Source: Acidithiobacillus sp. (lineage in GTDB: Bacteria; Pseudomonadota; Gammaproteobacteria; Acidithiobacillales; Acidithiobacillaceae). From it: 37,461 nucleotides of DNA. The translations under genes were made by a program, and so were the position numbers. The stretch's first letter is position 1; each line of letters opens with the position of its first letter. Positions 6,377 to 29,725 of the stretch are shown here, piece by piece. The notes under the pieces were generated by a model, which searched no databases, was not told the DNA's origin, and worked only from the letters and a program-made list of their open reading frames with translations. Where the stretch lies: NCBI GenBank assembly GCA_027365525.1, contig DAHXMJ010000012.1, positions 1 through 37,461 of the forward strand, read 5' to 3'.

Positions 6377-6391
6377 CAGGGCAGAAAGGCC

Positions 6392-7936: not shown

Positions 7937-8106
7937 CTGGTATCCGAAGCAGAACGAATTTATTAAGCACTATCAGTGAGTTGCATATTTTTTGACGATC
8001 ACTTCGTCTACATCGTCAATTGCGCAGATTTTCAATGATAACCGTTTGATGTAGATAGGCTTCACGCCTTCCATCTGTCGGGAGTTCAGGCACGCAGCGT
8101 GAATAT

Positions 8107-9736: not shown

Positions 9737-9931
9737 TCATGACTGGATAGGTGTGCCAGTATCACCTGGCGGTGCCGCCACTTTTCGTATCATGGAGTCT
9801 TCCTGCAGGACTTTTTCCTTTTGGCTTTTCCCCATCCCGTCCCCCTGTTTCCCCCGGCAGCAGGCCATGCCGCCGCAGCCTGTCCCCAGATCTGGTCCAT
9901 CAATGGGAATATTGGGCAGGATGCAGATTTT

Positions 9932-10492
9932 TCAGGAGGATTTTGGGGGTTTGGCCATCCGGGAAAGCATCAGCAGGGCGATTCCGTCAAATATCAGGTT
10001 GACGCCCACAAAAATTCCCACCAGGACGAGGGAACCCTTGGGCCAGGTGGCAATGAAGAGGAGCGCGATCAGGATGTCCAGAATCCCGCTAAAAATGAAC
10101 CATGGCCGTCCCAGGCCGTTAAATGCCCTGTGGGCAGTAAAATTCCGGTAGGCATCAATCAGGAAATAGAGGGTGAAAAGCAGACCGAGACTGGCGATGC
10201 CTGCGGCTGGTTCTGCAACAATGACCATACCGGTGACCAGCAGAAGAACGGGACGAAGCCAGTCGCCCAGGGATTTTGAGTGCATCTCGAGGCTGTGCAC
10301 TGCCCACATGGCACCGGAAATGATCAGTATGGCGGCAGTGATTCCCACAGTCAGTGTGGAGAGGAGTACCGGGCTGGCAACCCCTGCGAGGCCAAACACG
10401 ATGAGCATGACGGCAACGGGACGCAGGAATCTCCCCAGGTGTTTCTGCTCCACCTCAAGCAGGGTCTGGATGTTGGGAGGCTCGATATTCAC
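9932..10492 (-). CDS. HdeD family (DUF308) acid-resistance membrane protein
   Basis: The 186-residue protein is almost all hydrophobic, with about six membrane segments in three repeated pairs, such as FLRPVAVMLIVFGLAGVASP, TVGITAAILIISGAMWAVHS and PVLLLVTGMVIVAEPAAGIA. This is the DUF308 repeat pattern of HdeD. HdeD sits in the inner membrane and helps E. coli survive acid at high cell density; its biochemical role is not established. Length matches the family. It is a lone minus-strand gene between the decayed primase/helicase gene and a tRNA, so context says little beyond an acidic habitat. The start at 10492 begins MNIEPPNIQTLLEVEQ. Confidence 0.8.
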   Translation of the reverse strand: MNIEPPNIQTLLEVEQKHLGRFLRPVAVMLIVFGLAGVASPVLLSTLTVGITAAILIISGAMWAVHSLEMHSKSLGDWLRPVLLLVTGMVIVAEPAAGIASLGLLFTLYFLIDAYRNFTAHRAFNGLGRPWFIFSGILDILIALLFIATWPKGSLVLVGIFVGVNLIFDGIALLMLSRMAKPPKSS

Positions 10493-10766
10493 TTCGGAAC
10501 CCTCGATGGACGGACTGGGGGAAGTCTAGCACATCTTCCTGCGCGGCCTGTCAGCCGGTCTACCAAGGGTGGGTATGGCCCCCTGCTGCGGGATTCTGAA
10601 TGGCCCTTCCTCTTCGCGGGGACAGAATCACGTTAAGGAAACGGCCGCACCTTGCGGGAAACAGGGATTCCACCATGGACAAAAAGGTGGCAATCGCGCA
10701 TATTAGGCCCGGATTGATCGGGGCAGGACTAGGGATAGCATGACGGGAAAATTTGGAGAGAAGGTG

Positions 10767-10853
10767 TGGTACCGAGGACTGGATTCGAACCAGCACAAGC
10801 TTTCGCTCACTAGGACCTGAACCTAGCGCGTCTACCAATTCCGCCACCTCGGC
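10767..10853 (-). tRNA. tRNA-Leu (anticodon CAG)
   Basis: The minus strand reads as an 87-base tRNA with acceptor GCCGAGG paired to CCTCGGT, the D-arm GTGGCGGAATTGGTAGACGC, the anticodon loop TTCAGGT (anticodon CAG), a long variable arm typical of leucine tRNAs, the T-arm GGTTCGAATCC, and an encoded ACCA end. It is divergent from rnr, which starts 38 bases away on the other strand. Confidence 0.97.
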
Positions 10854-10891
10854 AATACGTCGCATTATCGGTTATCAAGGAGCTTTTGTCA

Positions 10892-16979: not shown

Positions 16980-17063
16980 CGCACGGTCACTCTCTCATCT
17001 TTCGTTCTTGCCAGACGGCACCTGCAGAAAAGGTCCCGCCGGAATCCAGGAACCCCCCGAACA

Positions 17064-17103
17064 CGTCTGTCTGAAGGAGAAATCTGTCTTCTTCAGACAG
17101 ACG
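17064..17103. terminator. 13-bp perfect inverted repeat between convergent genes
   Basis: The arms CGTCTGTCTGAAG (17064-17076) and CTTCAGACAGACG (17091-17103) pair perfectly around a 14-base loop. The repeat lies between the thioredoxin gene and the stop codon of the TonB-like gene, which are convergent, so a bidirectional terminator is the natural reading. There is no T run on either side, so it may instead be a structural block or a protein site. Confidence 0.6.
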
Positions 17104-17105
17104 AC

Positions 17106-17957
17106 TCATATGGCACGTACATGCCGGACCCCCAGAAAATGCATGTCCAGTGGAATTTCAATCCGTGATGTTTCCTTCCGAAGCTGTTTCGAGAATGGTG
17201 TGTAGGGAAAGGACAGGCGGATGATGCGCTTGGCTGCCGCATCCAGTGCAGCATTTCCCGAGGATTTCACCATTATGATTTTTTCCAGGTTGCCCTGGCG
17301 ATTCAGGACTACCCGGACCTTGAGGTGACCTACGAGATCTCCCGGATAGTTGAGGTCGCCAATACGCTCCAGTTTCTGGATCCATCCGGCAATGTAGAAA
17401 CCGGCGACCGGGCCCTTGGGGTTGTGGAATTTTGGCAGGGCCGGGCTTGTGGTGGCCTGTCCAGCGGCTTGGGCAATCTGTTCTTCCAGATGGCCGAGAT
17501 CAATGTGTGGAAGATGACGCCCCGCGCCACTTTCCTGGGCCCGCTGTGCGGGCGCTGCAGGTAAGGGCTGGATTCCCCGGTGGGGGGCCGGGTGTTGTGC
17601 TCTTGCCTTAGGCTGGTGTGGAACTTCAGGATGTGCTCGACTGGGGACTGCTGGCCTGATGGGAACGGTCTGGGTGATCCTGTGGTGTGGAGCCGGCTGG
17701 GGAACCGGCTGGACCGGGGCGACCCTCGGCCGTGCCAGCGGGCGGGTGGGAGACAGGGGTTCCGGCATGATCTGGAAGGTTTTGTGTTCTTTGCGGGGGC
17801 CGGCAAGGTGCAGAGACCGGTGGGAACTGGCGTGTACAAACCAGACCAGGAAGGCGGCAACCAGCAGTGCGGAGAGGAGAAGCCAGGGCATCAGGCCATC
17901 TGCCCAGTGTGGCTTTTCTTCCGGCACGAGAAAATAGAAGGGCTGGTGCGTATTCAA
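17106..17957 (-). CDS. TonB family protein
   Basis: The 283-residue product has one N-terminal membrane segment (about residues 24-43, MPWLLLSALLVAAFLVWFVH). A long Pro/His/Arg-rich stretch (about 50-150) could span the periplasm, and a C-terminal TonB domain follows, with LVGHLKVRVVLNRQGNLEKI, SSGNAALDAAAKRII and SFPYTPFS. TonB passes energy from the inner membrane to outer-membrane transporters. No exbB, exbD or receptor gene is adjacent. The linker is rich in histidine as well as proline, unlike the usual Glu-Pro/Lys-Pro repeats. The apparent start is a TTG at 17957 and is uncertain. Confidence 0.8.
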   Translation of the reverse strand: MNTHQPFYFLVPEEKPHWADGLMPWLLLSALLVAAFLVWFVHASSHRSLHLAGPRKEHKTFQIMPEPLSPTRPLARPRVAPVQPVPQPAPHHRITQTVPIRPAVPSRAHPEVPHQPKARAQHPAPHRGIQPLPAAPAQRAQESGAGRHLPHIDLGHLEEQIAQAAGQATTSPALPKFHNPKGPVAGFYIAGWIQKLERIGDLNYPGDLVGHLKVRVVLNRQGNLEKIIMVKSSGNAALDAAAKRIIRLSFPYTPFSKQLRKETSRIEIPLDMHFLGVRHVRAI

Positions 17958-18508
17958 GTGAGATCCACCCCATCACAGGGTATCAGACAGCAAACCGGGC
18001 TAGATTGAAGCATTGTCTGGCCAGAGTAAAGGTGTCTGAAATCTGGTCGCCCCTGCCTTTCCTTCCCTGTTTCGGTGGCGCCGCAGCGGGGTATGTCCTG
18101 TCCGTGCGGCGTCCTGCGATACAGGAACTGGGGAGCTGCTGCATCAGAAACTGGCAATCTCCAAATTCTCCGATATAATAAGATAAAAGGGTGCTCATAT
18201 AATACAAAAGTGGGAGGGCTGAAAAACGATGAAGCCAACCAGCCTTGGGGAAAAAAGGATCCTGCCGTCCGGCACCAGGCAACGGTATGTTTCCACCAAT
18301 TCCCTAAAGATATGAGGATGGACAAGAAATTGCGGCTTTGGGTCCGCCCGCTGTGCCATTCCTGTCACGGTTTCCTGCAGTTCTGGCCCTTTTCCCGGGC
18401 GCATCAGGGTTGGCCGTGCTCTCCTGCGATTTGCGCGGAAAGAATGCAGTTTCCCCCTATTCTTTATCCGGATACCAGACGTGCAGGGGAGACTCCCTTA
18501 TCGCATTA

Positions 18509-18520
18509 CCCCGCTGCAGG
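18509..18520 (+). repeat. Direct repeat copy 1 (CCCCGCTGCAGG)
   Basis: The 12-mer CCCCGCTGCAGG occurs here and again at 18763-18774. It is preceded in both places by a loosely similar stretch (GACTCCCTTATCGCATTA versus GATTCCCTGTTTATTTTACT). Two related sites 254 bases apart upstream of an operon could bind a regulator; this is inference. Confidence 0.4.
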
Positions 18521-18762
18521 ACTGTAACCGCGGGGGGGCAGAAAAAACATGGCGGTACCCATGTGCCCTGAAATTCAGGATTAAATAGGATGTTTGCGAG
18601 AAGTTTTCGGGACATGCTGCATCTGTTCTTTTGGCAGCCTTCTCATGAAGAAACCCTATTTCCGCAAGAACACGGGAGCAGTTGCGGCCCTTTTTGCCAA
18701 AAAAAAATTTGTGGAATAAAACAGTTTTTTATGGTTACTGGGGATTCCCTGTTTATTTTACT

Positions 18763-18774
18763 CCCCGCTGCAGG
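18763..18774 (+). repeat. Direct repeat copy 2 (CCCCGCTGCAGG)
   Basis: This is the second exact copy of the 12-mer at 18509-18520. It lies about 93 bases before the promoter-like site upstream of the Cyc2-like gene. Confidence 0.4.
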
Positions 18775-18866
18775 GTTCCGTATTGTCCTGTGGGAATATT
18801 TGCAAGGCTGATACCCGGAATTTACCCTATCTTCTTTATCGCACGCTTATATTCTGTATTTTACAG

Positions 18867-18894
18867 GTGACATTTGTGTTGCATCATGCATAAT
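18867..18894 (+). promoter_or_regulatory. Candidate promoter of the respiratory cluster
   Basis: GTGACA (18867-18872) and CATAAT (18889-18894) resemble -35 and -10 boxes with a 16-base spacer, and TG precedes the -10 box by one base. It is in the AT-rich part of the leader. Transcription from here would leave a 5' untranslated region of about 220 bases before the Cyc2-like gene, containing a small upstream frame. This is a pattern match only. Confidence 0.35.
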
Positions 18895-19048
18895 GGTAAA
18901 AGGAGGGTAATAGGTAAAGCTTTGTTAATAGGAGGATAAAGAAAAAGATCTATTTGAATAATGTAATTTGTTTATGAAGGTGTGTTTTGTTCCGGTAGCA
19001 CCAGGTCGGAGGAAAGCCAAACCGGTCTGGGGACTGAGGAGGAAGAAG

Positions 19049-19108
19049 ATGCGCCAGGGTTGGCGGCCCCGGTGTTCCTGCCGGATTCGCCGAAAGAGAA
19101 CAAAATAG
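19049..19108 (+). CDS. Candidate 19-residue upstream leader peptide
   Basis: An ATG at 19049, preceded by an excellent ribosome site (GAGGAGGAAGAAG), opens a 19-codon frame, MRQGWRPRCSCRIRRKRTK, that stops with TAG at 19106-19108. The stop abuts the GGAGA that serves the next gene, whose ATG is 12 bases on. The peptide has eight arginines, two lysines and two cysteines. It could couple or attenuate translation of the Cyc2-like gene, or be accidental. It is in a different frame from that gene. Confidence 0.35.
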   Translation: MRQGWRPRCSCRIRRKRTK

Positions 19109-19119
19109 GGAGAACAAAC

Positions 19120-20628
19120 ATGAGGATCACGAACGAAAATCTGCGGAAACGCAGAGGCAGGGTCTGGAAGGCAGCTGGTGCCACCCTTGCCATCGGGGCG
19201 GCCCTGTACTCGGTCAGCGCCGAGGCTCTGCCGACCTTCGCCCGCCAGACCGGATGGTCGTGCGCAACCTGTCACACATCCTATCCACAGCTGACTCCCA
19301 TGGGCCGGATGTTCAAGCTCCTGGGCTATACCACCTACAACGTGCAGCGGCAGCAGAAAGTCGAGGCGAAGCTCGGCAAGAGCGTCGGCCTGCTGCTGAT
19401 GCGCCTGTCGCAGTTCTCGGTTTTTGTCCAGGGCGCCTATACCAATGTGAATGGCGCGCCGGTCAACTCCAGGAGCAATACGGTCAAGTTCCCCGAGCAG
19501 CTCAGCCTGTTCTACTCCGGAGAAATTACGCCGCATATCGGCACTTTCATGCACATCACCTACAACGGGACTTCGGGCGGGATGGCCTTTGATGACAGCT
19601 CGATTGTCTGGTCCCATCCCTGGAGCGTGGGCAGCAACAAGATGCTGATCACCGCGGTCGATGTGAACAATACCCCTTCGCAGACTGACATCTACAATAC
19701 ATCACCAGACTGGGTTGCGCCCTTCTACAATCCGGACGCTACCCCGGGTGGACCATCCACCTTTATCCAGCAGGCTGCTGGTGCAGGTCTTCCTCTTGTA
19801 GGCGTTGGGACTTATGAAGCCTATCTGTTTGGCCCGAACAAGGCCAACTGGATTTACTTCGAGGCGGATGCCTATGCCGCAGGTTATGGTACGGGCTCGA
19901 ATCCGAATGCGGGCTATATCCCAGGTCCTACGCCGCCAACAGATTCGCAGACCGATTCGCCGACCTACAACGGTACTGGTCCTTATGGTACTGGTCCGCT
20001 TGCAGGGGCAGGCAATTTCCCCTATGGTGCCGGCCGGCTCTCCGGTGTGGCTCCGTATGTCCGTCTGGCCTACCAGCACGACTGGGGCAACTGGAACTGG
20101 GAAGTGGGCACATTTGGCATGTGGAGCCGGGTCTACGATGCCCCCGGGGATATCAAAACCGGGCAAACGGACCGTTTTGCCGACTACGACCTGGACACCC
20201 AGCTGCAGTGGCTGGATATCGCCAACAACAACAACCTGACGGTCCATGCGTCCTGGATTCATGAAGACCAGACCTTTGCGCCAGGAACAGCGCTTTCCAG
20301 CGCATCCAGTGGCCACCTGAACTCGCTGAATGTCAATGCGGAATACTGGTACCACGACCACTATGGTGCAGAGGCTGGCTACCAGAATGTGTGGGGATCC
20401 GCAAATCCCGGTCTGTATGGCACAGGATCCATGATCAGTGCGAATGGTTCACCTGATACGACCGATGAATGGGTGGAAGCCTCCTACCTCCCCTGGTGGA
20501 ATACGCGGTTTGCAATCCGTTACACCATCTTCAACAAGTACCAGGGTCTGGGGGGTAACAGTCCAGTAGGAACCTATGATGCCTCAGCGTTCAACACGCT
20601 GCAGCTTCTGGCCTGGCTGGCATTTTAA
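19120..20628 (+). CDS. Fused monoheme cytochrome c-porin, Cyc2-like
   Basis: The 502-residue protein has a basic N-terminus and signal peptide (KAAGATLAIGAALYSVSAEA). A single heme site, GWSCATCHTSYPQLTPMGRM (Cys48, Cys51, His52), is followed by about 440 residues of alternating polar and aromatic sequence rich in Tyr, Trp, Asn and Gly, ending in LLAWLAF with a C-terminal Phe. Heme-then-barrel is the layout of Cyc2, the outer-membrane cytochrome of iron oxidisers (485 residues in A. ferrooxidans, from memory), which takes electrons from extracellular Fe2+. Similar proteins occur in non-iron oxidisers, so the substrate is unproven. It is first in the bc1 cluster, 17 bases before c4 cytochrome 1. 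The ATG at 19120 has GGGAGA behind it; the frame is open upstream, but the signal peptide supports this start. Confidence 0.75.
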   Translation: MRITNENLRKRRGRVWKAAGATLAIGAALYSVSAEALPTFARQTGWSCATCHTSYPQLTPMGRMFKLLGYTTYNVQRQQKVEAKLGKSVGLLLMRLSQFSVFVQGAYTNVNGAPVNSRSNTVKFPEQLSLFYSGEITPHIGTFMHITYNGTSGGMAFDDSSIVWSHPWSVGSNKMLITAVDVNNTPSQTDIYNTSPDWVAPFYNPDATPGGPSTFIQQAAGAGLPLVGVGTYEAYLFGPNKANWIYFEADAYAAGYGTGSNPNAGYIPGPTPPTDSQTDSPTYNGTGPYGTGPLAGAGNFPYGAGRLSGVAPYVRLAYQHDWGNWNWEVGTFGMWSRVYDAPGDIKTGQTDRFADYDLDTQLQWLDIANNNNLTVHASWIHEDQTFAPGTALSSASSGHLNSLNVNAEYWYHDHYGAEAGYQNVWGSANPGLYGTGSMISANGSPDTTDEWVEASYLPWWNTRFAIRYTIFNKYQGLGGNSPVGTYDASAFNTLQLLAWLAF

Positions 20629-20645
20629 GGGGAGGAACAGAAGCA

Positions 20646-21308
20646 ATGTTTACAGGCAATTCTTTGCGGAAAATCCTCTCCTTCAGGGGTGCCCTTGGGG
20701 GTGCCGGCGCTGCGACGCTGGCCATGCTGGCGGTTTCAGGCGTCCCGGCGTCGGCTGCGACAAAAGCACCGCTTCCGATGCCTTCCATCGTCGAGCATTC
20801 CTGTATGGTCTGTCATGGCGGTATGGGGCATAACACGATCTATCCCATTGTGCCCAGGCTTGCCGGACAGCAGGTCCAGTATCTGGAATGGCAGCTGAAG
20901 CAGTTCCACAAGCATACCCGTGCGGACCAGAATGGGCAGATCTACATGTGGCCGGTGGCCCAGTCGCTGACGCCTGCGGAGATCACCACGCTGGCGAAGT
21001 ATTATTCGTCCCAGACGCCCATGCACAATGAAACGGGCGCAAGGCCGGAAGCTGCTGCCGGAGAGAAGATCTTCATGAACGGAATCGGTGCCAATGTTCC
21101 GGCCTGTATGGCCTGTCACGGCCCGACCGCAGGTGGCATTGGTACGTTCCCCCGTCTGGCGGGGCAGCGCTACCACTATATCATCCAGCAGCTGGAGTAT
21201 TTCCACGCCGGCAAGCGGGTGAATCCCATCATGCAGCCTATTGCAGCAGCGCTGACGGTTCCGGAGATGCACGACCTCGCAGCGTACCTGTCCAGCCTGA
21301 AAAAATGA
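20646..21308 (+). CDS. Diheme cytochrome c4 (first copy)
   Basis: The 220-residue protein has a signal peptide (GAATLAMLAVSGVPASA) and two homologous cytochrome domains. The heme sites are HSCMVCH (Cys53, Cys56, His57) and PACMACH (Cys154, Cys157, His158), each followed by PRLAGQ and a likely axial Met (Met101 in IYMWPVAQSL and Met196 in PIMQPIAAAL). Cytochromes c4 are periplasmic electron carriers; in Acidithiobacillus they link outer-membrane or periplasmic donors with oxidases and bc1 complexes. AGGGGAGG lies upstream of the ATG at 20646. It is separated from its paralogue by a 103-base spacer full of stem-loops. Confidence 0.93.
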   Translation: MFTGNSLRKILSFRGALGGAGAATLAMLAVSGVPASAATKAPLPMPSIVEHSCMVCHGGMGHNTIYPIVPRLAGQQVQYLEWQLKQFHKHTRADQNGQIYMWPVAQSLTPAEITTLAKYYSSQTPMHNETGARPEAAAGEKIFMNGIGANVPACMACHGPTAGGIGTFPRLAGQRYHYIIQQLEYFHAGKRVNPIMQPIAAALTVPEMHDLAAYLSSLKK

Positions 21309-21318
21309 TGGGCAAAAG

Positions 21319-21392
21319 GACCGGTTCCGGTCCCATACGGGAAAAACTGTTCTGATCCGGTTCTAAAACCGGCATGGCCTTCGGGCCATGCC
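21319..21392 (+). promoter_or_regulatory. Three consecutive stem-loops between the two c4 genes
   Basis: Three perfect hairpins follow each other: GGACCG-GTTC-CGGTCC (21319-21334), CCGGTT-CTAA-AACCGG (21357-21372) and GGCATGGCC-TTCG-GGCCATGCC (21371-21392). The last has a 9-bp stem with the very stable UUCG loop and shares two bases with the middle one, so those two cannot both form fully. No T run follows, so this is not a classical terminator; partial termination, mRNA protection or processing are likelier. Confidence 0.7.
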
Positions 21393-21411
21393 ACCAACCC
21401 AAGGTGACTCT

Positions 21412-22176
21412 ATGACAGGAAAAAGGTTGTCGTTGTTCGCGGTACCCTGGCTGGTGACGCTTTCACTATTTTCGGTCGCCCATGCAGGAGTAGCAGCCAA
21501 GGCTGTATCGGGAAAAGCGGTTTCTGCTGCTGTTTCGGCAGCGACAGCGTCTTCAGCTTCGGCTGCTAGCGCAGTATCTGCCAGTACAACGTCTGCTGCT
21601 TCGGCCTCTGCTGCCGCCGGTGCCGCAACCGTGGCTGGGGTTCCGGCGGTTGTGCAGTCGACCTGCATGGCCTGCCATGGCATGCAGGGAATTGCCGCTG
21701 ACGGGGGAATGTTTCCCAATCTGGCGGGTCAGGTACCCCAGTACCTGTTGCGGCAGCTGCACCATTTCCAGACCCATGTCCGTGCGGATCCGGATGCTCC
21801 GATCATGTGGGGTATGGCAGCGCCGCTGACGCCTGCCCAGATCAGCCGGGTCGTGGAATATTTTTCCAGCCAGAAACCGGCTACTGGCCATGTGTATGAT
21901 CCGAAGCTGGTGGCGGAGGGCAGGAAGCTCTACTACGGTGGTCTTCCAGCGAAGCAGATGCCTGCGTGCATGGCCTGCCATGGAACGGGCCTTGCTGGAC
22001 TGCCGCCCTTCTTCCCAAGACTCGCCGGGCAGAAGCGGACCTATGTCATCAACCAGCTGACGTATTTCAAGAGTGGACAAAGGGTAGCTACCCATAAAGG
22101 CATCATGAACTATATCGCTTCAAGACTCACACCGCAGCAGATTACCGAGCTGGCTGCGTTTATTAGATCCCGGTGA
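21412..22176 (+). CDS. Diheme cytochrome c4 (second copy) with Ala/Ser-rich linker
   Basis: This 254-residue paralogue of the preceding gene has a signal peptide (FAVPWLVTLSLFSVAHA). About 50 residues of Ala, Ser, Val and Thr follow (roughly 27-76), then two heme domains with TCMACH (Cys85, Cys88, His89) and PACMACH (Cys186, Cys189, His190); Met residues in IMWGMAAPLT and IMNYIASRLT are the likely axial ligands. The flexible low-complexity tether is absent from copy 1 and could hold the heme module away from a membrane or partner. The ATG at 21412 has AAGGTGA behind it. The SDR gene starts six bases after its stop. Confidence 0.93.
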   Translation: MTGKRLSLFAVPWLVTLSLFSVAHAGVAAKAVSGKAVSAAVSAATASSASAASAVSASTTSAASASAAAGAATVAGVPAVVQSTCMACHGMQGIAADGGMFPNLAGQVPQYLLRQLHHFQTHVRADPDAPIMWGMAAPLTPAQISRVVEYFSSQKPATGHVYDPKLVAEGRKLYYGGLPAKQMPACMACHGTGLAGLPPFFPRLAGQKRTYVINQLTYFKSGQRVATHKGIMNYIASRLTPQQITELAAFIRSR

Positions 22177-22182
22177 TTTTCT

Positions 22183-22992
22183 ATGAAAATGGATGAAAAG
22201 GCAAGTCCTGATAAACCCGGAATGCTGGGTGGAAAAACCATTCTGGTCACCGGTGCCGGTGAGGGAATCGGCAAGGCCGTCTCCCTGGAGTATGCACGGC
22301 AGGGCGCAACAGTCATCCTGCTGGGCAAGACCAAGCGCAATCTGGAAGGGGTATACGATGAAATAAAGGATTCCGGCTATCCGGAACCGGCCATACTGGT
22401 CGTGGACCTGTCCGAGCCCAAGAGTGATGCCTTTAAAACGATCGGGGCTGCCATCGCCAGTGAATTCAAAAGTCTGGATGGTATTGTCCACAATGCCGCA
22501 GAGCTCGGAATGCTGACTCCGCTGGAAATGTACGACGGAGATCTCTGGGACCAGGTTTTCCAGGTCAATGTAAAGGCCCCTCTGCAGATTCACCAGCAGT
22601 GTCTGGGACTTCTGCGGGAAAGTGCCTATGCCTCGGTTGTCTTTACAACGGACGAATCGGGCAGAAAGCCAAAGGGGTACTGGGGAGCCTACGGCATTAG
22701 CAAAGCCGCAGTTCTCCATATGGGAAAAATGATGGCCATCGAGTATGCCAATACGTCCATCCGGGTCAATGTTGTGGATCCAGGCCCCTGCAGGACCGGA
22801 CTCCGGCTCATGACGCATCCGGGAATGCCAATGAAAAGCTATGTTCCCCCTGAAGCCATCACCGGGATTTATACCCGTCTGATGACCGACGAGGTCCAGG
22901 CGCACAATGGGGAGGTCTTTTTTGCCCAGGAGTGGATCAATCCGGAGCTGGATGACCGGACAGAACGTGATCTGGCAGCACTGGCACATTAA
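22183..22992 (+). CDS. sdrA: Short-chain dehydrogenase/reductase-like protein (SdrA-type)
   Basis: The 269-residue cytoplasmic protein has a Rossmann fold with the nucleotide motif TGAGEGIGK (about residues 23-31), the structural HNAA motif (about 103-106) and Tyr170-x3-Lys174 (YGISK). It resembles the YciK-like SDR branch. By memory, a gene of this type sits between cytochrome c4 and the Rieske gene in Acidithiobacillus pet operons, with unknown role. The catalytic Ser expected about 13 residues before Tyr170 is not there: the stretch reads FTTDESG, with Asp157 at that spot and Ser159 at -11. It starts six bases after the c4 stop, with little ribosome site of its own, so coupling is likely; ATG at 22189 is an alternative. 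Confidence 0.8.
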   Translation: MKMDEKASPDKPGMLGGKTILVTGAGEGIGKAVSLEYARQGATVILLGKTKRNLEGVYDEIKDSGYPEPAILVVDLSEPKSDAFKTIGAAIASEFKSLDGIVHNAAELGMLTPLEMYDGDLWDQVFQVNVKAPLQIHQQCLGLLRESAYASVVFTTDESGRKPKGYWGAYGISKAAVLHMGKMMAIEYANTSIRVNVVDPGPCRTGLRLMTHPGMPMKSYVPPEAITGIYTRLMTDEVQAHNGEVFFAQEWINPELDDRTERDLAALAH

Positions 22993-23021
22993 TCAGAGAC
23001 ATCTTTGACAGGACGTTACCC

Positions 23022-23663
23022 ATGACAGAAGAGATAAAGAACACCCAAAAAAGCATAGAACCGCAGACTTCACCTGCGGTGATCACAAGACGCCGCTTCC
23101 TTACTGCAATGACAGCTGTGACCGGAACCGCAGTTGCGGGCGCCGTGGTCGTGCCGATGGTCCAGTCCCTGGAACCTACCGCGGCAGCATCGGCCCTCGC
23201 TACAACCACGATTGACCTGACGCCCATCGAGCCTGGCATGCAGGTCACGGCTATGTGGCAGGAAAAACCGGTCATTGTTATCAACAGGACACCAGAGATG
23301 CTCGCCACGCTGGACGAGACCATGCAAAAGGGACTCCTCAAGGATCCCAACTGCAATGTCCCCCAGCAGCCGCCCTACTGCAAGAACAAGTACCGTTCGC
23401 GTATCCCCGAGTGGTACGTAGGCATACGCATCTGCAACCACCTCTGCTGTATTCCCCATTACCGTCCAAAAAAGGGCAGTGTCGCCCCTTGGTGGCTGGG
23501 CGGCTTCCACTGCCCGTGTCATGGGTCCATGTACGACCTTTCCTGCCGGGTAATCAAGGGTTCACCCGCACCCCACAACATGGCAGTACCAGAATATGAA
23601 ATTGATATTGCCAAAAAGAAGGTGGTGGTGACCCATATGTACCCGCTGGCACATCTCTGCTGA
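23022..23663 (+). CDS. petA: Rieske iron-sulfur subunit of the bc1 complex
   Basis: PetA carries electrons from quinol to cytochrome c1. The 213-residue protein begins with a Tat-type region (ITRRRFL, about residues 21-27) and one membrane anchor (about 30-50). The cluster sites are CNHLCC (Cys138, His140, Cys143) and CPCHGS (Cys164, Cys166, His167). In homologues Cys138, His140, Cys164 and His167 bind the cluster and Cys143-Cys166 form a disulfide. The usual first box is CTHLGC; here the Gly is Cys142, an extra cysteine next to the cluster. Further cysteines are at 111, 120, 175 and 213. About 40 residues precede the first box without the usual pattern. It is followed 31 bases later by petB. 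Confidence 0.93.
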   Translation: MTEEIKNTQKSIEPQTSPAVITRRRFLTAMTAVTGTAVAGAVVVPMVQSLEPTAAASALATTTIDLTPIEPGMQVTAMWQEKPVIVINRTPEMLATLDETMQKGLLKDPNCNVPQQPPYCKNKYRSRIPEWYVGIRICNHLCCIPHYRPKKGSVAPWWLGGFHCPCHGSMYDLSCRVIKGSPAPHNMAVPEYEIDIAKKKVVVTHMYPLAHLC

Positions 23664-23694
23664 TCTGTGTGCAAAGGAATAAGGAGGAGGAAAA

Positions 23695-24909
23695 ATGGGT
23701 CTGAAAGAGTGGGTTGACAAGCGGTCTCCGCTTCCCGACATGTGGCGTGAGCATATGGCGGAGTACTATGCTCCCAAAAACTTTAACATTTTCTATTATG
23801 CAGGTTCCCTGCTGCTGCTGATGGTAGCGCTCCAGTTCCTGTCGGGGTTTCTGGTGCTGGCGCACTATGTGCCCTCGGCCGAGGATGCCTACAATTCCGT
23901 GTTTGGCATCATGTACGACGTGAAATATGGCTGGCTGATGCAGTACATGCACGTCGACGGTTCTTCCCTGATTTTCGTTCTGCTGTACGTGCACATGGCC
24001 AGAGGCATGATCTATGGCTCCTATAAGGCGCCGCGGGAACTGGTCTGGATCATCGGCTATATCCTCTATCTGATATTTATGGCCGAGGCGTTCTTCGGCT
24101 ATGTGCTGCCCTACTCGAACCTCTCCTACTGGGCGGGTACGGTGATTACCTCCCTGCTCAAATCCATACCTTTCATCGGGAACTGGGTCACGATCATTGC
24201 CCGTGGTGGTCCGGGCATCAGTGGGGACACTATCGGCCGGTTCATGGCACTGCACGTCACCCTCGTGTTTATCCTGATTATTGGGCTGATCGCCGTGCAC
24301 ATCCTCTACCTGCACAAAGTCGGGTCGAACAATCCTGATGGCATTGATATCAAGGAGAACAAGGACAGTAACGGCCATCCGCTGGACGGAATTCCCTTCC
24401 ATCCGTACTACACCGTCAAGGATCTTTCCGGGTTCGGGGTCTGGCTGTTCATTTTTGCGGCGGTCATTTTTTATGCCCCGACGTTCCACCACATTTTCCT
24501 GGAACGCACCATGTCGACTCCGGCCAACGCGCTGAAGAGCCTTCCCGATGTGACGCCGCCCTGGTACCTGTCGCCGTTCTACGCGATGCTGCGTTCCATT
24601 CCCAACAAGAACGGCGGCATTCTGCTAATGCTGTTTGCGGTTCTGGTGCCTTTTCTCATGCCCTGGCTGGATCGCAATCCCGTCCGGTCCACCCGGTTCC
24701 GCCCGGTGACCCGGATCATGCTCATCATCTTCTTTCTCAACTTTTTCCTTCTGGCCTGGGTGGGAGAACAGCCGCCGCTGCCGAAATATTTTTTCCCGGA
24801 GCGGCTGGGTTCCGTGATCTATGTCGGCTTTTTCCTGCTGCTCCCCATAGTGACAATGTTCGAGCCCACGCGGAAACCGCCGGCCCGGGTCCGTTACCGT
24901 GCGCACTGA
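23695..24909 (+). CDS. petB: Cytochrome b of the bc1 complex
   Basis: PetB holds the two b hemes and both quinone sites in the inner membrane. The 404-residue protein has the eight-helix layout of a full-length cytochrome b. His86 and His100 are in the second helix (13 residues between) and His187 and His202 in the fourth (14 between, as in cytochrome b6; mitochondrial and most proteobacterial b have 13). The quinol-oxidation motif is TPPWYLSPF (residues 287-295): PPWY where most have PEWY, so the Glu is missing. AAGGAGGAGG sits just before the ATG at 23695. petC follows after 30 bases. The extended loop SNNPDGIDIKENKDSNG is normal for the family. Confidence 0.96.
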   Translation: MGLKEWVDKRSPLPDMWREHMAEYYAPKNFNIFYYAGSLLLLMVALQFLSGFLVLAHYVPSAEDAYNSVFGIMYDVKYGWLMQYMHVDGSSLIFVLLYVHMARGMIYGSYKAPRELVWIIGYILYLIFMAEAFFGYVLPYSNLSYWAGTVITSLLKSIPFIGNWVTIIARGGPGISGDTIGRFMALHVTLVFILIIGLIAVHILYLHKVGSNNPDGIDIKENKDSNGHPLDGIPFHPYYTVKDLSGFGVWLFIFAAVIFYAPTFHHIFLERTMSTPANALKSLPDVTPPWYLSPFYAMLRSIPNKNGGILLMLFAVLVPFLMPWLDRNPVRSTRFRPVTRIMLIIFFLNFFLLAWVGEQPPLPKYFFPERLGSVIYVGFFLLLPIVTMFEPTRKPPARVRYRAH

Positions 24910-24939
24910 TACTGGCACGCAGAGAAGAAAGGACGACTT

Positions 24940-25641
24940 ATGAAAAAGCTTCTTGTCATTGGTACCCTGGTGGCTGGGCTGGGTATGGGGGGTATGGTGG
25001 CGGCGGAGGCGGAAACGGCTCCAGTGCTCATGAAACCGAAGTATACCTACGACGCCAAAACCATTATTGCGGGGGCCAAGCTGTTTGCCATGCACTGCAT
25101 GGTGTGCCACTCGGTCCAGTTCATGCGCTATGAGTTCCTGACCAAGGATCTCGGCATGTCGAAGGCGGATGTCCACAAATACATCATGCTGCCGACCGGT
25201 GCGGGATATAAGGCAAACATGGTTTCTGCCATGCCGGTCAACATGGCCAGCAAGTGGTTTGGACGGCCGCCGCCAGATCTCAGCCAGATGGAGCGCTACA
25301 AGAGCCAGGACTGGATCTATACCTACCTGCTCTCCTTCTACCAGGATTCGAAAAGGCCCTCGGGATGGAATAACCATGTATTTCCCAACGTGGCCATGCC
25401 GGATGTCCTTGCCCCGATGGGCGGAACCTGGAGTGAGAAAGGCAAGCTTCTGAAGGCGGGTAACGAGTCGCAGCAGAAGTTCCGGAAGCAGGTGACTGAT
25501 ATTGTTGCCTTCCTGCGGTTTGTCTCGGATCCCTCAGTAATTCAGCGGCACGAGGATGGGCCCTGGGTTCTTGGGCTGTTTGCCCTGTTTACGGTCTTCG
25601 CCTATCTGCTCAAGAAGGCGTACTGGAAAGATGTAAAATAG
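24940..25641 (+). CDS. petC: Cytochrome c1 of the bc1 complex
   Basis: PetC accepts electrons from the Rieske protein and passes them to periplasmic carriers, here presumably c4 cytochromes or HiPIP. The 233-residue protein has a signal peptide (LLVIGTLVAGLGMGGMVAAEA), the heme site HCMVCHSVQFMRY (Cys53, Cys56, His57), a likely axial Met in FPNVAMPDVL, and a C-terminal anchor (PWVLGLFALFTVFAYLLKKA). It is slightly shorter than typical c1 but complete. In autotrophic iron oxidisers a second bc1 complex can run in reverse to reduce quinone; which direction applies here cannot be read from sequence. A stem-loop follows the gene. Confidence 0.95.
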   Translation: MKKLLVIGTLVAGLGMGGMVAAEAETAPVLMKPKYTYDAKTIIAGAKLFAMHCMVCHSVQFMRYEFLTKDLGMSKADVHKYIMLPTGAGYKANMVSAMPVNMASKWFGRPPPDLSQMERYKSQDWIYTYLLSFYQDSKRPSGWNNHVFPNVAMPDVLAPMGGTWSEKGKLLKAGNESQQKFRKQVTDIVAFLRFVSDPSVIQRHEDGPWVLGLFALFTVFAYLLKKAYWKDVK

Positions 25642-25665
25642 TTGCTGTTGTTGTAGTGCAGTTTG

Positions 25666-25704
25666 CCGTCTCTCCATGCGGATTTTCTCCGGAAGGGGAG
25701 GCGG
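25666..25704 (+). promoter_or_regulatory. Stem-loop between petC and hip 1
   Basis: CCGTCTCTCC (25666-25675) pairs with GGGGAGGCGG (25695-25704) over ten base pairs, two of them G-U, around a 19-base loop. TTTCTC follows, a weak T run. A partial terminator or a 3'-end protector of the pet message is plausible. Confidence 0.5.
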
Positions 25705-25735
25705 TTTCTCATGTAAGAGGTAAAGGAGAAATCTA

Positions 25736-26053
25736 ATGGATAGTAAAAAAGATGGAATTGGGAGCCAGAAATCGCAGGTCATGACCCGTCGTGATCTGCT
25801 CCGTGGAATGGCCATGACAGCCGGTGCCCTGGCGGTCGGCGCTGCGGCCGGGATCAGTCCTATTGGCTTTGCCGAAGCGGGAAAGTGTCCTGGAATGACG
25901 CCCAAGGCAACCCTGCATTATCAGGACCATCCCAACGGTGCAGAGCATTGCGCGGTATGTACCAACTTTATTTCTCCAGGCTGCTGCAAGGTGGTGGCCG
26001 GTCCGGTAGTGCCGGCTGGCTACTGTCTGGCGTTTTCTCCAAAAGTTGCCTGA
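25736..26053 (+). CDS. hip: High-potential iron-sulfur protein (HiPIP), first copy
   Basis: HiPIP is a small periplasmic 4Fe-4S electron carrier. The 105-residue precursor has a Tat signal (MTRRDLLRGMAMTAGALAVG, about residues 16-35). The mature part has cysteines 72, 75, 83, 84 and 97 in HCAVCTNFISPGCCKVV and GYC, matching C-x2-C-x8-C-x12-C if Cys84 is used, plus Cys51 near the mature N-terminus. Cys51 and Cys83 could form an extra disulfide that helps acid stability; that is inference. AAAGGAG precedes the ATG at 25736. It lies behind petC, consistent with taking electrons from cytochrome c1 or c4. Confidence 0.93.
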   Translation: MDSKKDGIGSQKSQVMTRRDLLRGMAMTAGALAVGAAAGISPIGFAEAGKCPGMTPKATLHYQDHPNGAEHCAVCTNFISPGCCKVVAGPVVPAGYCLAFSPKVA

Positions 26054-26073
26054 GGATATGATCTGAAGTGCTG

Positions 26074-26101
26074 CCCCGCCTGGTTTTTGGACCAGGTGGG
26101 G
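26074..26101 (+). promoter_or_regulatory. Stem-loop after hip 1
   Basis: CCCCGCCTGGT (26074-26084) pairs with ACCAGGTGGGG (26091-26101) over 11 base pairs with one G-U and a six-base loop. AAATTTC follows instead of a T run, so it is more like an RNA-protecting or attenuating hairpin than a simple terminator. The next gene starts 170 bases on, and I see no gene in between. Confidence 0.6.
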
Positions 26102-26270
26102 AAATTTCTGGAAAGCGGTCCTGGTGGCCTGCCACGACCGGATGGAAGAACAGGCTGCAGGGTGCCTGTCTGGAGGTTCGGCTCCCATGGGTTCGGGAGC
26201 ATGGCCGTGCTGGCAGCCTGGAGCCTGGCGTTTCAGCCGGGCCACGCTGACTATAAATAAGGAGTATGCC

Positions 26271-26717
26271 ATGAAGAGAAAAATGACTGCCATTGCAGGT
26301 GCTACAGTGGCCGGAATGCTTGCGCTCACCGGCGGGACGGGAGCAGCCATGGGTGCCGATGCAGGAAAAATCATGCAGAAGACGATCCACAGTGGGTCCC
26401 TGCTTTTTGCCTCATCTTCCCTCGGGAGTAATGGCCGGTCCTGCATGACCTGCCACCGGGGTGGAGGTATGGTCCAGGGTCGCCTGCCCAATGGCAAGAT
26501 TATCCCGAGCCTCAAGGGAGTCGCCGCAAAGTTCCCGCAGTACAATGCCAGGGCCGGAAAGGTCATTACTCTGGACATGAGGATCAACTCCTGTATCCAG
26601 AATGCCCTTGGTGGAATGCCTCTGAGCTTCAATGGGAAAAGGATGGTATCCATGGTGTCCTATCTGACTTCCCTGTCCGAAGGAGACCGTATCCATCTGG
26701 CTGGCGCGAAGTCCTGA
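26271..26717 (+). CDS. Small monoheme c-type cytochrome
   Basis: The 148-residue precursor has a signal peptide (MTAIAGATVAGMLALTGGTGAAMGA) and one heme site, GRSCMTCHRGGG (Cys58, Cys61, His62). The following pattern FPQYNARAGKVITLDMRINSC...GMPLSFNGKRM...VSYLTSLS resembles cytochromes of the SoxA/SoxX and thiosulfate dehydrogenase (TsdA) group; there a Cys or Met provides the distal ligand, here possibly Cys108 or a Met after it. AAGGAG precedes the ATG at 26271. It sits between two HiPIP genes, so it may pass electrons from a sulfur compound or from bc1 to HiPIP. The family assignment is tentative; the heme and export are firm. Confidence 0.8.
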   Translation: MKRKMTAIAGATVAGMLALTGGTGAAMGADAGKIMQKTIHSGSLLFASSSLGSNGRSCMTCHRGGGMVQGRLPNGKIIPSLKGVAAKFPQYNARAGKVITLDMRINSCIQNALGGMPLSFNGKRMVSMVSYLTSLSEGDRIHLAGAKS

Positions 26718-26731
26718 GGCCACTGTCCGGA

Positions 26732-26759
26732 GGAGGATGGCCGTCTCTGGCCGTCCTCC
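26732..26759 (+). promoter_or_regulatory. Stem-loop between the small cytochrome and hip 2
   Basis: GGAGGATGGCC (26732-26742) pairs with GGCCGTCCTCC (26749-26759) over 11 base pairs, one G-U, around a six-base loop. No T run follows. This repeats the arrangement seen after hip 1. Confidence 0.6.
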
Positions 26760-26852
26760 ACCGGCGGGGGCATCCGCCAGGTGGAATGACTGACCCGAAA
26801 GATTTTCTGGATATAGGTGGTGTTACCTCTAGGATGGCAAAGGAGTACCACA

Positions 26853-27167
26853 ATGGACAGCAGGAAAGATGGAAAGAGCTCCCAACCACGGGTCCTGAGC
26901 CGGCGTACCCTGCTTAGGGGAATGGCTGTGACGGCCGGAGTCCTGGCCGCAGGAGCGGCGGTTGGGGTCAGTCCAATGGGCATTGCCGAGGCAGGGAAAT
27001 GTCCTGGGACTACACCCAAGACTGCAGTAGCCTATCAGGATCACCCGAATGGCGGGGAGCATTGTGCGACCTGCGCGTTTTTCATCGCCCCGGGCTGCTG
27101 CAAAGTTGTTGCAGGGCCAGTCGTCGCATCTGGGTACTGCAAGGCCTTTTCACCGAAAATGGCCTGA
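26853..27167 (+). CDS. High-potential iron-sulfur protein (HiPIP), second copy
   Basis: This 104-residue paralogue of the first HiPIP has the same layout: Tat signal (LSRRTLLRGMAVTAG) and cysteines 50, 71, 74, 82, 83 and 96 in HCATCAFFIAPGCCKVV and GYC. It clearly arose by duplication, since both start MDSxKDG and end AFSPKxA. The extra Cys50 and Cys82 are kept. AAAGGAG precedes the ATG at 26853. Differences cluster around the cluster-binding loop (TNFIS versus AFFIA) and near the signal, so the two may differ in potential or partner. Confidence 0.93.
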   Translation: MDSRKDGKSSQPRVLSRRTLLRGMAVTAGVLAAGAAVGVSPMGIAEAGKCPGTTPKTAVAYQDHPNGGEHCATCAFFIAPGCCKVVAGPVVASGYCKAFSPKMA

Positions 27168-27192
27168 CGTTCGTGCCGGTGTAGTTTCTGTT

Positions 27193-27215
27193 CCCCCTTC
27201 CCCGGGGAGAGGGGG
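27193..27215 (+). promoter_or_regulatory. Stem-loop after hip 2
   Basis: A G/C-rich inverted repeat (CCCCCTTCC and GGAGAGGGGG around CCGG) gives about nine base pairs with one bulged G. It lies 26 bases after the hip 2 stop and is the likely end structure of the respiratory transcript, although only TCTGC follows and not a T run. Confidence 0.45.
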
Positions 27216-27343
27216 TCTGCATATATGGCCACAGGAATGTAGCCAGGGCTATAGGGATGTTTTAAGGTTTCCGGAAAGGCATGCCGGACAGTTTATGGTG
27301 CTCGGGCCCAAAAGCCCTCATCAAGGTATGGAGGATTATCTGA

Positions 27344-27775
27344 ATGGGCAGTAGAGGGTTGTTGATGTCTGGAGTACCGATGATTGCGGTTCTGCTGCTG
27401 GGTGGATGTGGAACAGATGGCAGCGCACAGAAACTCCAGAATGTGGCCTATGAAGGCATGGCCGACCAGAACCAGATGCAGCAGATCGCAGTTCCCCCAC
27501 GTGCTGCGGCAGTGCCGGCAGAGCAGCCAGAAGCTGCCGTCCCGCCTTCCGGTTCCGTGGCGTACCGGACGCCCGAAGTGCCCCGCGCTTCCCTGATCCT
27601 GCCGGCTGCCCCGCAGAGTCCGGGAACAGGCGTGACCCTGGGTTCCCGTTACCCATGTGGACTGGTAATCAAGATCCGCGGTCCACTGGCCAAGGTCCAG
27701 CGGGGCTACAGGACCTACTGGATTTCTATTTCCAGGCTGAAAACCATCACATCGGTGAACCAGTGTGTAGAATAG
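27344..27775 (+). CDS. Predicted lipoprotein of unknown function
   Basis: I do not recognise this 143-residue protein. It starts with a lipoprotein signal (VPMIAVLLLGGCG, lipobox LGGC around residue 22). The middle is Ala/Pro/Gln-rich and probably disordered (PRAAAVPAEQPEAAVPPSG). The C-terminal part is compact, basic and aromatic, with two cysteines (RYPCGLVIKI and SVNQCVE) that may form a disulfide. GGAGG lies upstream of the ATG at 27344; ATG at 27365 is also possible. It follows the HiPIP gene after 176 bases, so a role with the cluster is possible but unproven. Confidence 0.65.
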   Translation: MGSRGLLMSGVPMIAVLLLGGCGTDGSAQKLQNVAYEGMADQNQMQQIAVPPRAAAVPAEQPEAAVPPSGSVAYRTPEVPRASLILPAAPQSPGTGVTLGSRYPCGLVIKIRGPLAKVQRGYRTYWISISRLKTITSVNQCVE

Positions 27776-27883
27776 CTACTGTACAGGTCACCCAAAAATG
27801 GTCCCGATATGCGGGAAAGAGGCGGCTGGGAGACCATTTCTCCGGTTGCCGGAACAGCGTCTTTACAGAGGATGGTGACAGTG

Positions 27884-28330
27884 ATGCGCTGGCGTGAGCA
27901 GGTTTTGCTGTCGGGAGGGCGTCAGCTCCCCGAAATTCGGGTCAGCCGGATGGCTTTTTTCCGCCCATTGGCCATTTTTCTGGTTTCTCTCCTACTGTTC
28001 TGGGGAGATACGAAACTCGCGGACATGACCGGGACGGTGGTCCTTGTCCTGTCCTTCATTGATGCCTCTACCATAGCGGCCCTGATGCTTTCCACGGCCT
28101 GCTGGGCGAACGGCACCCAGCTTTTTGTGCGATATGGGGTAGTACGTCCGGTCTATGCTTCGGTCGACGCGGCGGACATCCGCAATATCGGCATAGACCA
28201 GTCTCCGGCTGGCCGTCTGCTGGGGTATGGATCGTTGATTATCCTTGGCAGATCCGCTGGGATCCGGATGCAGTTTATCCGCAATCCGGCCACGGCTGCG
28301 GACCGGATCAGGGAAAGCCTTCAGACCTGA
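27884..28330 (+). CDS. Small membrane protein with PH-like C-terminus
   Basis: The protein (148 residues from the ATG at 27884; starts at 27872 or 27809 are possible) has two central membrane segments (FFRPLAIFLVSLLLFWGD and TVVLVLSFIDASTIAALMLSTACW). A hydrophilic C-terminus with ASVDAADIRNIGIDQSPAGRLLGYGSLIIL resembles the bacterial PH-like (bPH2/YdbS) fold, in which the domain repeats the pattern 'V...I..I.v.qs...r.lGyG.v.i'. Function is unknown for most of these. It follows the lipoprotein after about 110 bases. Confidence 0.5.
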   Translation: MRWREQVLLSGGRQLPEIRVSRMAFFRPLAIFLVSLLLFWGDTKLADMTGTVVLVLSFIDASTIAALMLSTACWANGTQLFVRYGVVRPVYASVDAADIRNIGIDQSPAGRLLGYGSLIILGRSAGIRMQFIRNPATAADRIRESLQT

Positions 28331-29128
28331 CCATGCCGCGCCTGACGGTGGAAGCCGTGGGCACGGGTTTCTCGGCTGGCACAACGGCAGCCTGGGATGT
28401 CCTGTCCAGAAAACTGGCGCTGTCTGGCTGTACAGCAGGGACAGGTCGCCGAAATCGCCGAGTGGAATACACACATGGAATCTGATCTGTCCAGTCTGAT
28501 GGCCGGGGCTTGCACGGTTTCCTTCAAGCCCGGCTGGATCTGCTGCAGATCCACATTGAACAGGCTGGCTAGCCTGGGCGAAGAGCATCGAAAGTGTCAG
28601 GCCTTGTCCATAATGGCCTTGCGGCCGGAGTGGTTTCCCGGTTGATGCGGCGTTCCGTAATACCTTCGTCTATGCGGATGTTCCCAGTCCTGATCAAAAG
28701 AAAGGCCTGCAACAGCACGATTGGGTGCTGGGATGCCTGGAAGTCTACTGCGTCTGCCAGGCTGGGCTTTAAGCGGCTGCCAGAACGCGTGATGGAAAGA
28801 CCAGTTGGCCTGCGGGTCGGGTCGTCGCCCAAAAGGTCTACCTGCGGCGTTTCAGGACAGAACTGAACGTCCTTTATCTGCGAAGCGTATCGGGGTGGTG
28901 ATACTGGACCAGGATGGGCACCACGCTTAATGTGGCCAGAAATTTCCTGGCCTCTGGCCTGCATCCTAAACCGGCATGCGGCGAGTTCCAGTGGATGGGA
29001 GCCTGTGGAGAGGGACGCTATGGCATTGTCCGCCTGGCCACATGGAACCGGCCCGGATGAAGCAGGAGATTCGCGCTGGTTCTCCCTGCTGGTAGAAATG
29101 AGACAGGTCTAACTGAACGGAGGAAGTG
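28331..29128 (+). other. Stretch without a supportable gene; possible gene ruin
   Basis: About 800 bases contain only short frames. Coding-like fragments appear in changing frames, for example a 51-residue frame from 28333 (MPRLTVEAVGTGFSAGTTAA), a frame from about 28644 (AFRNTFVYADVPSP) and a frame near 28915 (NVARNFLASGLHPKPACGEF). None has a matching ribosome site, and I recognise no family. A decayed gene is possible; so is non-coding spacer. Confidence 0.35.
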
Positions 29129-29725
29129 ATGACAGAATCAAGCAAGGATTTTGATGCGGTCACGAAAACCATTCACCTTGGGATGGCGACTGTCCTGCCG
29201 CTCCAGATGGTTGGGGGACTGTTTGTCCACGATCCCCACACGCTCCTGTACCTGTATGTCCACGAGTATGTGGGCATTCTGGCGATTGTGATTCTGCTTG
29301 CCAGGTGGCTGTGGATCTACACCGCGAGCCAGACCAGCGTTCTGTTTCCGTGGGGATCTGCCGGAAGAAAGAAGGTGCTGGCCGATTTTCGTAACCTGCG
29401 TTCCGGCATTCTGCCAGACCACCAGTATGGGGTAGGACTGCCCGGCTTCTGGCACGGAATCGGACTGATCGTGTATTCCGTTCTGGCGGCAACCGGACTG
29501 GTCCTGCTGTTCGTGCTTCCCGGCCACCATTCGGTTCTCGGGGTTTCGTCCCACAATTTCCATCTGTATACCGAGACGTCCCTGATCCACAAGGCTGCTT
29601 CCTACCTCGGATGGGTCTATCTGGCAGGCCACATCGGACTGGCCATCTTTCACCAGGTTGCCGGAGACAACGTCCTTGGCAAGATGTTTTTTCTGGGAGG
29701 ACGGCGGAGTATGTCCAGACGCTGA
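29129..29725 (+). CDS. b561-type membrane cytochrome
   Basis: The 198-residue protein has four membrane segments and several histidines in helix positions suited to b heme: DAVTKTIHLGMA (His16), LYLYVHEYVG (His45), GFWHGIGLIVYSVLA, and YLGWVYLAGHIGLAIFHQVAGD. This is the layout of the prokaryotic cytochrome b561/YceJ group, which passes electrons between quinone and a periplasmic partner. GGAGG lies before the ATG at 29129. It is close to the bc1 cluster but separate. Partner and substrate are unknown. Confidence 0.75.
   Translation: MTESSKDFDAVTKTIHLGMATVLPLQMVGGLFVHDPHTLLYLYVHEYVGILAIVILLARWLWIYTASQTSVLFPWGSAGRKKVLADFRNLRSGILPDHQYGVGLPGFWHGIGLIVYSVLAATGLVLLFVLPGHHSVLGVSSHNFHLYTETSLIHKAASYLGWVYLAGHIGLAIFHQVAGDNVLGKMFFLGGRRSMSRR

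Follow-up and report, generated by a model that had tools for sequence, protein, structure and literature searches.

A petII-type bc1 operon headed by Cyc2B–Cyc1B genes recurs in Acidithiobacillaceae and is a candidate conduit for ferric-iron respiration

Gene content and type of the cluster

The window analyzed here (37,461 nt) is contig C8 of G000, a metagenome-assembled genome (MAG; 1.37 Mb, 62% complete) of an uncultured acidophilic bacterium of genus g1, which belongs to the same family as Acidithiobacillus ferrooxidans. It carries a cytochrome bc1 gene cluster with an outer-membrane cytochrome gene at its head. All ten open reading frames named in a sequence-only reading are present on the plus strand at 19120–27167, in the order given there: a Cyc2-like cytochrome-porin, two c4-type cytochromes, a short-chain dehydrogenase (SDR), a Rieske protein, cytochrome b, cytochrome c1, a high-potential iron-sulfur protein (HiPIP), a SoxA/TsdA-type cytochrome, and a second HiPIP (Table 1). 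Intergenic gaps are, in turn, 17, 79, 6, 29, 31, 30, 94, 217, and 135 nt. Measured against the homologous locus L031 (MAG YF4.bin20), a comparison between two species, each of the ten genes evolves under purifying selection, with ratios of nonsynonymous to synonymous substitution (dN/dS) of 0.02–0.16. We regard this gene content as practically certain.

The first gene product belongs to the Cyc2 family. It is 53–64% identical over its full length to Acidithiobacillus-type Cyc2 (53–62% to the Cyc2 of rus operons) and has an N-terminal signal and a single CXXCH motif (CATCH from residue 48), of which the heme cysteines and histidine are invariant across 15 homologs. The profile search proposed for this 502-residue protein gave a mixed answer, as no Pfam or NCBIfam model matched and only the full-length homologs placed it. 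A C-terminal β-barrel is predicted from homology and from the published barrel model of AfCyc2 (PMC10654088). AlphaFold2, given an alignment of only 15 sequences, returned an unusable model (predicted local distance difference test score, 27.9), and a crude count of β-strand alternation scored no better than shuffled sequences. Distant Cyc2 homologs from three further families of the class lack petII-type bc1 genes in their vicinity.

Phylogeny separates the head of the cluster from the rus operon. Among 19 Cyc1 sequences placed in a tree, those of the window, of four other fused clusters, and of three stand-alone cyc2-cyc1 pairs form one clade (100/100) that excludes every rus-operon Cyc1 in the tree. 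For Cyc2, the corresponding tree groups the window and L031 with L032 and the stand-alone pairs, termed Cyc2B, at 99/96. By these trees the head is the Cyc2B–Cyc1B pair and not the rus-operon pair relocated to a bc1 operon. A. ferrooxidans ATCC 23270 (G019) encodes cyc2 in its rus operon (L160) and in a stand-alone cyc2-cyc1 pair (L130), next to separate petI (L159) and petII (L156) operons. As these are its only two cyc2 loci and one is rus, the stand-alone pair must correspond to the published Cyc2B/Cyc1B, which falls in the same two clades but does not head a bc1 operon there. The rus operon (cyc2-cyc1-cup-coxBACD-rus) likewise begins with cyc2-cyc1 but continues to an aa3 oxidase and rusticyanin and contains no bc1 genes. 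In G000, c4-sdr-petABC follows the pair, and cup-cox-rus lies on another contig. The stand-alone cyc2B of G022 (L131, 8670–10200) spans two frames and is probably frameshifted.

From CycA2 onward, the cluster is, by gene order and identity, a petII operon. The cycA-sdrA-petABC-hip order is present, and identities are higher to petII than to petI proteins for PetB (81–84% versus 63–64%), SDR (76–78% versus 48–51%), CycA (70–84% to CycA2 over the aligned part versus 51–55% to CycA1), and PetC (70–74% versus 53–59%). PetA identity does not separate the two types; this protein matches TIGR01416 at 204 bits (cut-off, 97). The proposal that a Cyc2-family gene leads a petII-type bc1 operon, unlike the textbook division between rus and petII, is therefore upheld. 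The petII operon of ATCC 23270 (cycA2-sdrA2-petA2B2C2-hip, AFE_2727–2732) has the same order from the second c4 gene on, and its SDR, PetA, PetB, and PetC are 72–85% identical to those of the window. Genes for bPH_2 and cytochrome b561 proteins follow. It differs in being preceded by a nitronate-monooxygenase-like gene rather than cyc2-cyc1, and in having one hip gene and no small cytochrome.

Both HiPIPs retain the cluster cysteines and score 98.8 and 85.2 bits with the Iro/Hip-type model NF041615, under its cut-off of 100. An expanded tail had also been proposed, and this was only partly sustained. The petII operon of A. ferriphilus (L128) already includes hip and the small cytochrome gene, and in several species petII is trailed by hip, bPH_2, and b561. 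What is new in the tail is therefore the second HiPIP alone. The twin-HiPIP tail is thus a modest expansion of an ordinary petII operon. Among fused clusters, a second hip gene beyond that of the window was found in L031 only. The petC–hip spacer of L031 (16420–16831) is 413 nt long, versus 94 nt in the window, and carries an insertion.

Table 1. Features of the window and of related loci (window positions unless a locus is named)
Feature	Position	Strand	Basis or remark
Block upstream of cyc2	18846–19119	+	236/275 identical to L031, BLASTN 9e-87
Promoter-like hexamers GTGACA-16-CATAAT	18867–18894	+	Inside upstream block
Cyc2-like outer-membrane monoheme cytochrome-porin, 502 aa	19120–20628	+	Homology, tree; CATCH at residues 48–52
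Diheme cytochrome c4, Cyc1B type, 220 aa	20646–21308	+	PF00034, two CXXCH; PDB 1h1o (cytochrome c-552) E 2e-62
Diheme cytochrome c4, CycA2 type, 262 aa	21388–22176	+	PF00034, two CXXCH; petII likeness
SDR, SdrA2 type	22183–22992	+	PF00106
Rieske PetA	23022–23663	+	TRRRFL twin-arginine translocation (Tat) motif, CNHL/CPCH cluster box
Cytochrome b PetB, petII type	23695–24909	+	PF00033/PF00032
Cytochrome c1 PetC	24940–25641	+	PF02167
Spacer petC–hip	25642–25735	+	Strong stem-loop, no U-tract, z -3.26
HiPIP 1	25736–26053	+	Tat signal, CxxC-x7-C-x13-C-type cluster cysteines; PioC E 1e-6
Spacer after HiPIP 1	26054–26150	+	12-pair stem-loop, z -3.2
Monoheme SoxA/TsdA-domain cytochrome c, 148 aa	26271–26717	+	PF21342; start refined
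Spacer cytochrome–hip	26718–26849	+	Stem-loops, z -2.6
HiPIP 2, 104 aa	26853–27167	+	75 of about 104 residues identical to HiPIP 1; start refined
Lipoprotein-like gene	27344–27775	+	Downstream
bPH_2 protein gene	27809–28330	+	Downstream
Cytochrome b561 gene	29126–29725	+	Downstream
~70-nt element	L156 5393–5457		
~70-nt element	L130 9276–9344		
~70-nt element	L033 9841–9907		
cup-coxBAC-rus cluster of G000	L118 (G000:C30:58000–73000), 5356–10526		After hprK-rapZ-like region; proteins 48–73% identical to Acidithiobacillus
Second rusticyanin of G000	G000:C9:698–1123		No cyc2/cyc1 beside it

Recurrence, the shared upstream element, and transcription

The fusion is not confined to the window: in a gene-order comparison it is shared by four other MAGs, giving five carriers in two genera. 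L031 has the same gene order and flanks, at 82–98% identity to the window. Three Acidithiobacillus MAGs, WY1.bin85 (L032), clean429 (L037), and YP4.bin20 (L039), contain the same fusion without the second HiPIP, with L032 cut by a contig end. All four keep the cyc2-cyc1-c4-sdr-pet order, with hip and the small cytochrome gene where the contig reaches. Given that order and sequence recur under selection in L031 and again in three Acidithiobacillus MAGs, the arrangement is not a product of chance.

Across the family, cyc2 was found in 11 of 29 genomes. Gene absences reported here rest on profile searches, and MAG incompleteness limits each one. Within g1, cyc2 and a petII-type bc1 co-occur in G000 and G005 only; five other members (G002, G003, G004, G006, and G007; 98–100% complete) have no cyc2, no such bc1, and no rusticyanin. 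A simple insertion into a clean empty site was considered for g1 and is not demonstrable, as tonB and xseA adjoin in all other members and the far side varies. In the petII-only genomes examined (L126, L128, L155, and L156), a nitronate-monooxygenase-like gene precedes petII, and in L032 and L037 cyc2-cyc1 lies between these two. One petII operon (L155, G025:C5), from a 96%-complete genome without detectable cyc2, occupies a site matching that of the fused clusters.

A further connection between the two units is an element of ~70 nt found upstream of cyc2B, both stand-alone (L130, L131, and L033) and fused (L032, L037, and L039), and upstream of stand-alone petII (L155, L156, L157, and L158; weakly L128). 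Its profile had no other match in the 1.34 Mb examined, rus and petI operons included. The profile was itself built from nine of its hits; the element first emerged from pairwise BLAST matches, which reach E 6e-13. Sharing of this element links cyc2B to petII, through a common regulator or as the relic of a former joint unit. Its distribution would suit a site bound by a regulator of anaerobic iron respiration as well as such a relic.

Spacer lengths and the conserved upstream block are compatible with one transcript for the ten genes, which we consider plausible. Tail-spacer stem-loops exceed shuffled sequences, also in L031 (z -3.7 for hip–cytochrome and -5.25 for cytochrome–hip), where they occupy the same places with different stem sequences and lack a U-tract. 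We read them as probable hairpins that process or stabilize the transcript and so set the ratio of small carriers, although they may be weak terminators. L032, L037, and L039 have a longer cyc1–c4 spacer that still contains the former petII leader (in L032 and L037, 84% over 90 nt relative to G025), so that two promoters are possible in the Acidithiobacillus MAGs. That leader is the point in favor of a mere neighborhood, in which cyc2-cyc1 lies before petII but is expressed independently from its own promoter. Such an arrangement is very improbable, as the identical junction occurs in five MAGs of two genera, the split units have a common upstream element, and the 79-nt spacer of the window is highly conserved within its genus without a petII leader. 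Cyc2B–Cyc1B and petII probably form a joint functional unit.

Direction of electron flow

The sequence-only reading described a conduit between an outside donor and the quinone pool that could run either way. Our analysis leans, by a small measure, toward a petII operon headed by Cyc2B–Cyc1B whose main role would be outward, in ferric-iron respiration; the inward route stands as a possibility where cox-rus genes are present. For the routing between proteins, we infer that electrons from sulfur compounds would enter the quinone pool, that quinol would reduce bc1, where energy would be conserved, and that bc1 would pass electrons through c4 to Cyc2 and on to Fe(III) outside the cell at low pH. 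Two lines of evidence favor this direction: the oxidase complement of three carriers and published anaerobic proteomics. In G005, G024, and G027 (91%, 90%, and 85% complete), the only haem-copper oxidase subunits are CyoB-type, i.e., bo3 quinol oxidases, CyoB being the best model for them yet below its own cut-off, and no rusticyanin, petI, or cytochrome c oxidase was detected in these incomplete MAGs. With quinol oxidases alone, electrons leaving bc1 would have no obvious sink but Cyc2. In A. ferrooxidans, Cyc2B/Cyc1B and petII products are reported during anaerobic Fe3+ respiration (PMC8790237, PMC7735108). No cytochrome c peroxidase, an alternative sink, was found in G000, G005, G024, or G027; this is uninformative, as ATCC 23270 has none either. 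Searches of the incomplete G000 and G005 yielded no hydrogenase large subunit, so hydrogen is not the favored donor in these two.

The converse assignment is a module for Fe(II) oxidation, in which Cyc2 takes electrons from Fe(II) and sends part uphill through reverse bc1 to quinone and NADH and part through HiPIPs and rusticyanin to an aa3 oxidase encoded elsewhere. A. ferrooxidans Cyc2 is reported to accept Fe(II) electrons (PMC2621215), and no Cyc2 besides that of the operon was found that might supply the cup-coxBAC-rus cluster of G000 (L118). The bc1, however, is of the petII type, reportedly induced by sulfur and anaerobiosis, rather than the petI type reported for reverse flow, and G005, G024, and G027 have no detected aa3 oxidase or rusticyanin. 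We therefore judge Fe(II) oxidation unlikely as the main role, although carriers with cox-rus genes, such as G000, may run the conduit inward. A conduit of no fixed role, reducing Fe(III) without oxygen and oxidizing Fe(II) with it, would match the literature model in which A. ferrooxidans shares rus and pet proteins in both directions, and G000 does own both gene sets. This version appears less probable still, given that three carriers have no downhill Fe(II)-to-oxygen route except reverse bc1 with the bo3 quinol oxidase.

Several observations weigh against outward ferric respiration as the main role. G000 itself has an aa3-type cup-coxBAC-rus cluster (G000:C30) without cyc2-cyc1 beside it. 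The three carriers that lack cox-rus are represented by incomplete MAGs, and binning often misses accessory regions. No more than about 40 kb separates petI from rus in ATCC 23270, and a single event could explain why both are missing. Published petII data include aerobic sulfur growth (PMC2754497). The ~70-nt element is not recognizable in the window, where a different 274-nt block, conserved with L031, lies upstream of cyc2. FNR-type sites are fewer than chance, with none upstream of cyc2, and the tail stem-loops could split the transcript. Finally, L037 encodes a chimeric Cyc2 (10013–11551) that joins a B-type signal peptide to a mature part of the rus type (68–100% identical to L046 per 50-column block) and lies beside a B-type Cyc1, and the Cyc2 of L039 (9972–11522) is nearly identical to it; B-type Cyc2 is thus not strictly bound to the fusion. 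Among carriers, G028 has the fusion together with a full rus operon (L035).

The cluster is a real and recurrent variant of petII with a Cyc2B–Cyc1B head, and a candidate ferric-respiration conduit. A review of iron reduction by acidophiles called the ferric reductase at the end of the petII route (bc1 II–CycA2–Hip) "still unknown" (PMC8790237). The fusion in five MAGs and the shared upstream element make Cyc2B with Cyc1B a candidate for it, in a compact operon suited to testing which way electrons run. More tentatively, and with the balance somewhat against it, the fused cyc2B-cyc1B-petII could be an ancestral dedicated ferric-respiration operon of Acidithiobacillaceae, kept in cells without cytochrome c oxidase or rusticyanin; Cyc2B would then be the missing terminal reductase of petII, and the A. 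ferrooxidans layout would have arisen by splitting. According to a class-wide survey, only the iron/sulfur clade of Acidithiobacillus has iron-redox genes (PMC8528912); in contrast, they occur here in a genus outside Acidithiobacillus proper.

Neighboring features

Promoter-like matches in the region, including the hexamers upstream of cyc2, are at chance level (6 found versus 5.7 expected), and an Rfam scan of 17000–28500 matched no family. Between the tonB-like gene and the upstream block of cyc2, ~620 nt (18220–18845) contain no likely gene and are not conserved with L031, with conserved blocks on both sides. A. ferrianus MG carries the rus operon twice, on different contigs and in nearly identical form (L036 and L038). 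The bPH_2 and cytochrome b561 genes downstream of the cluster also lie downstream of petII in several Acidithiobacillus genomes.

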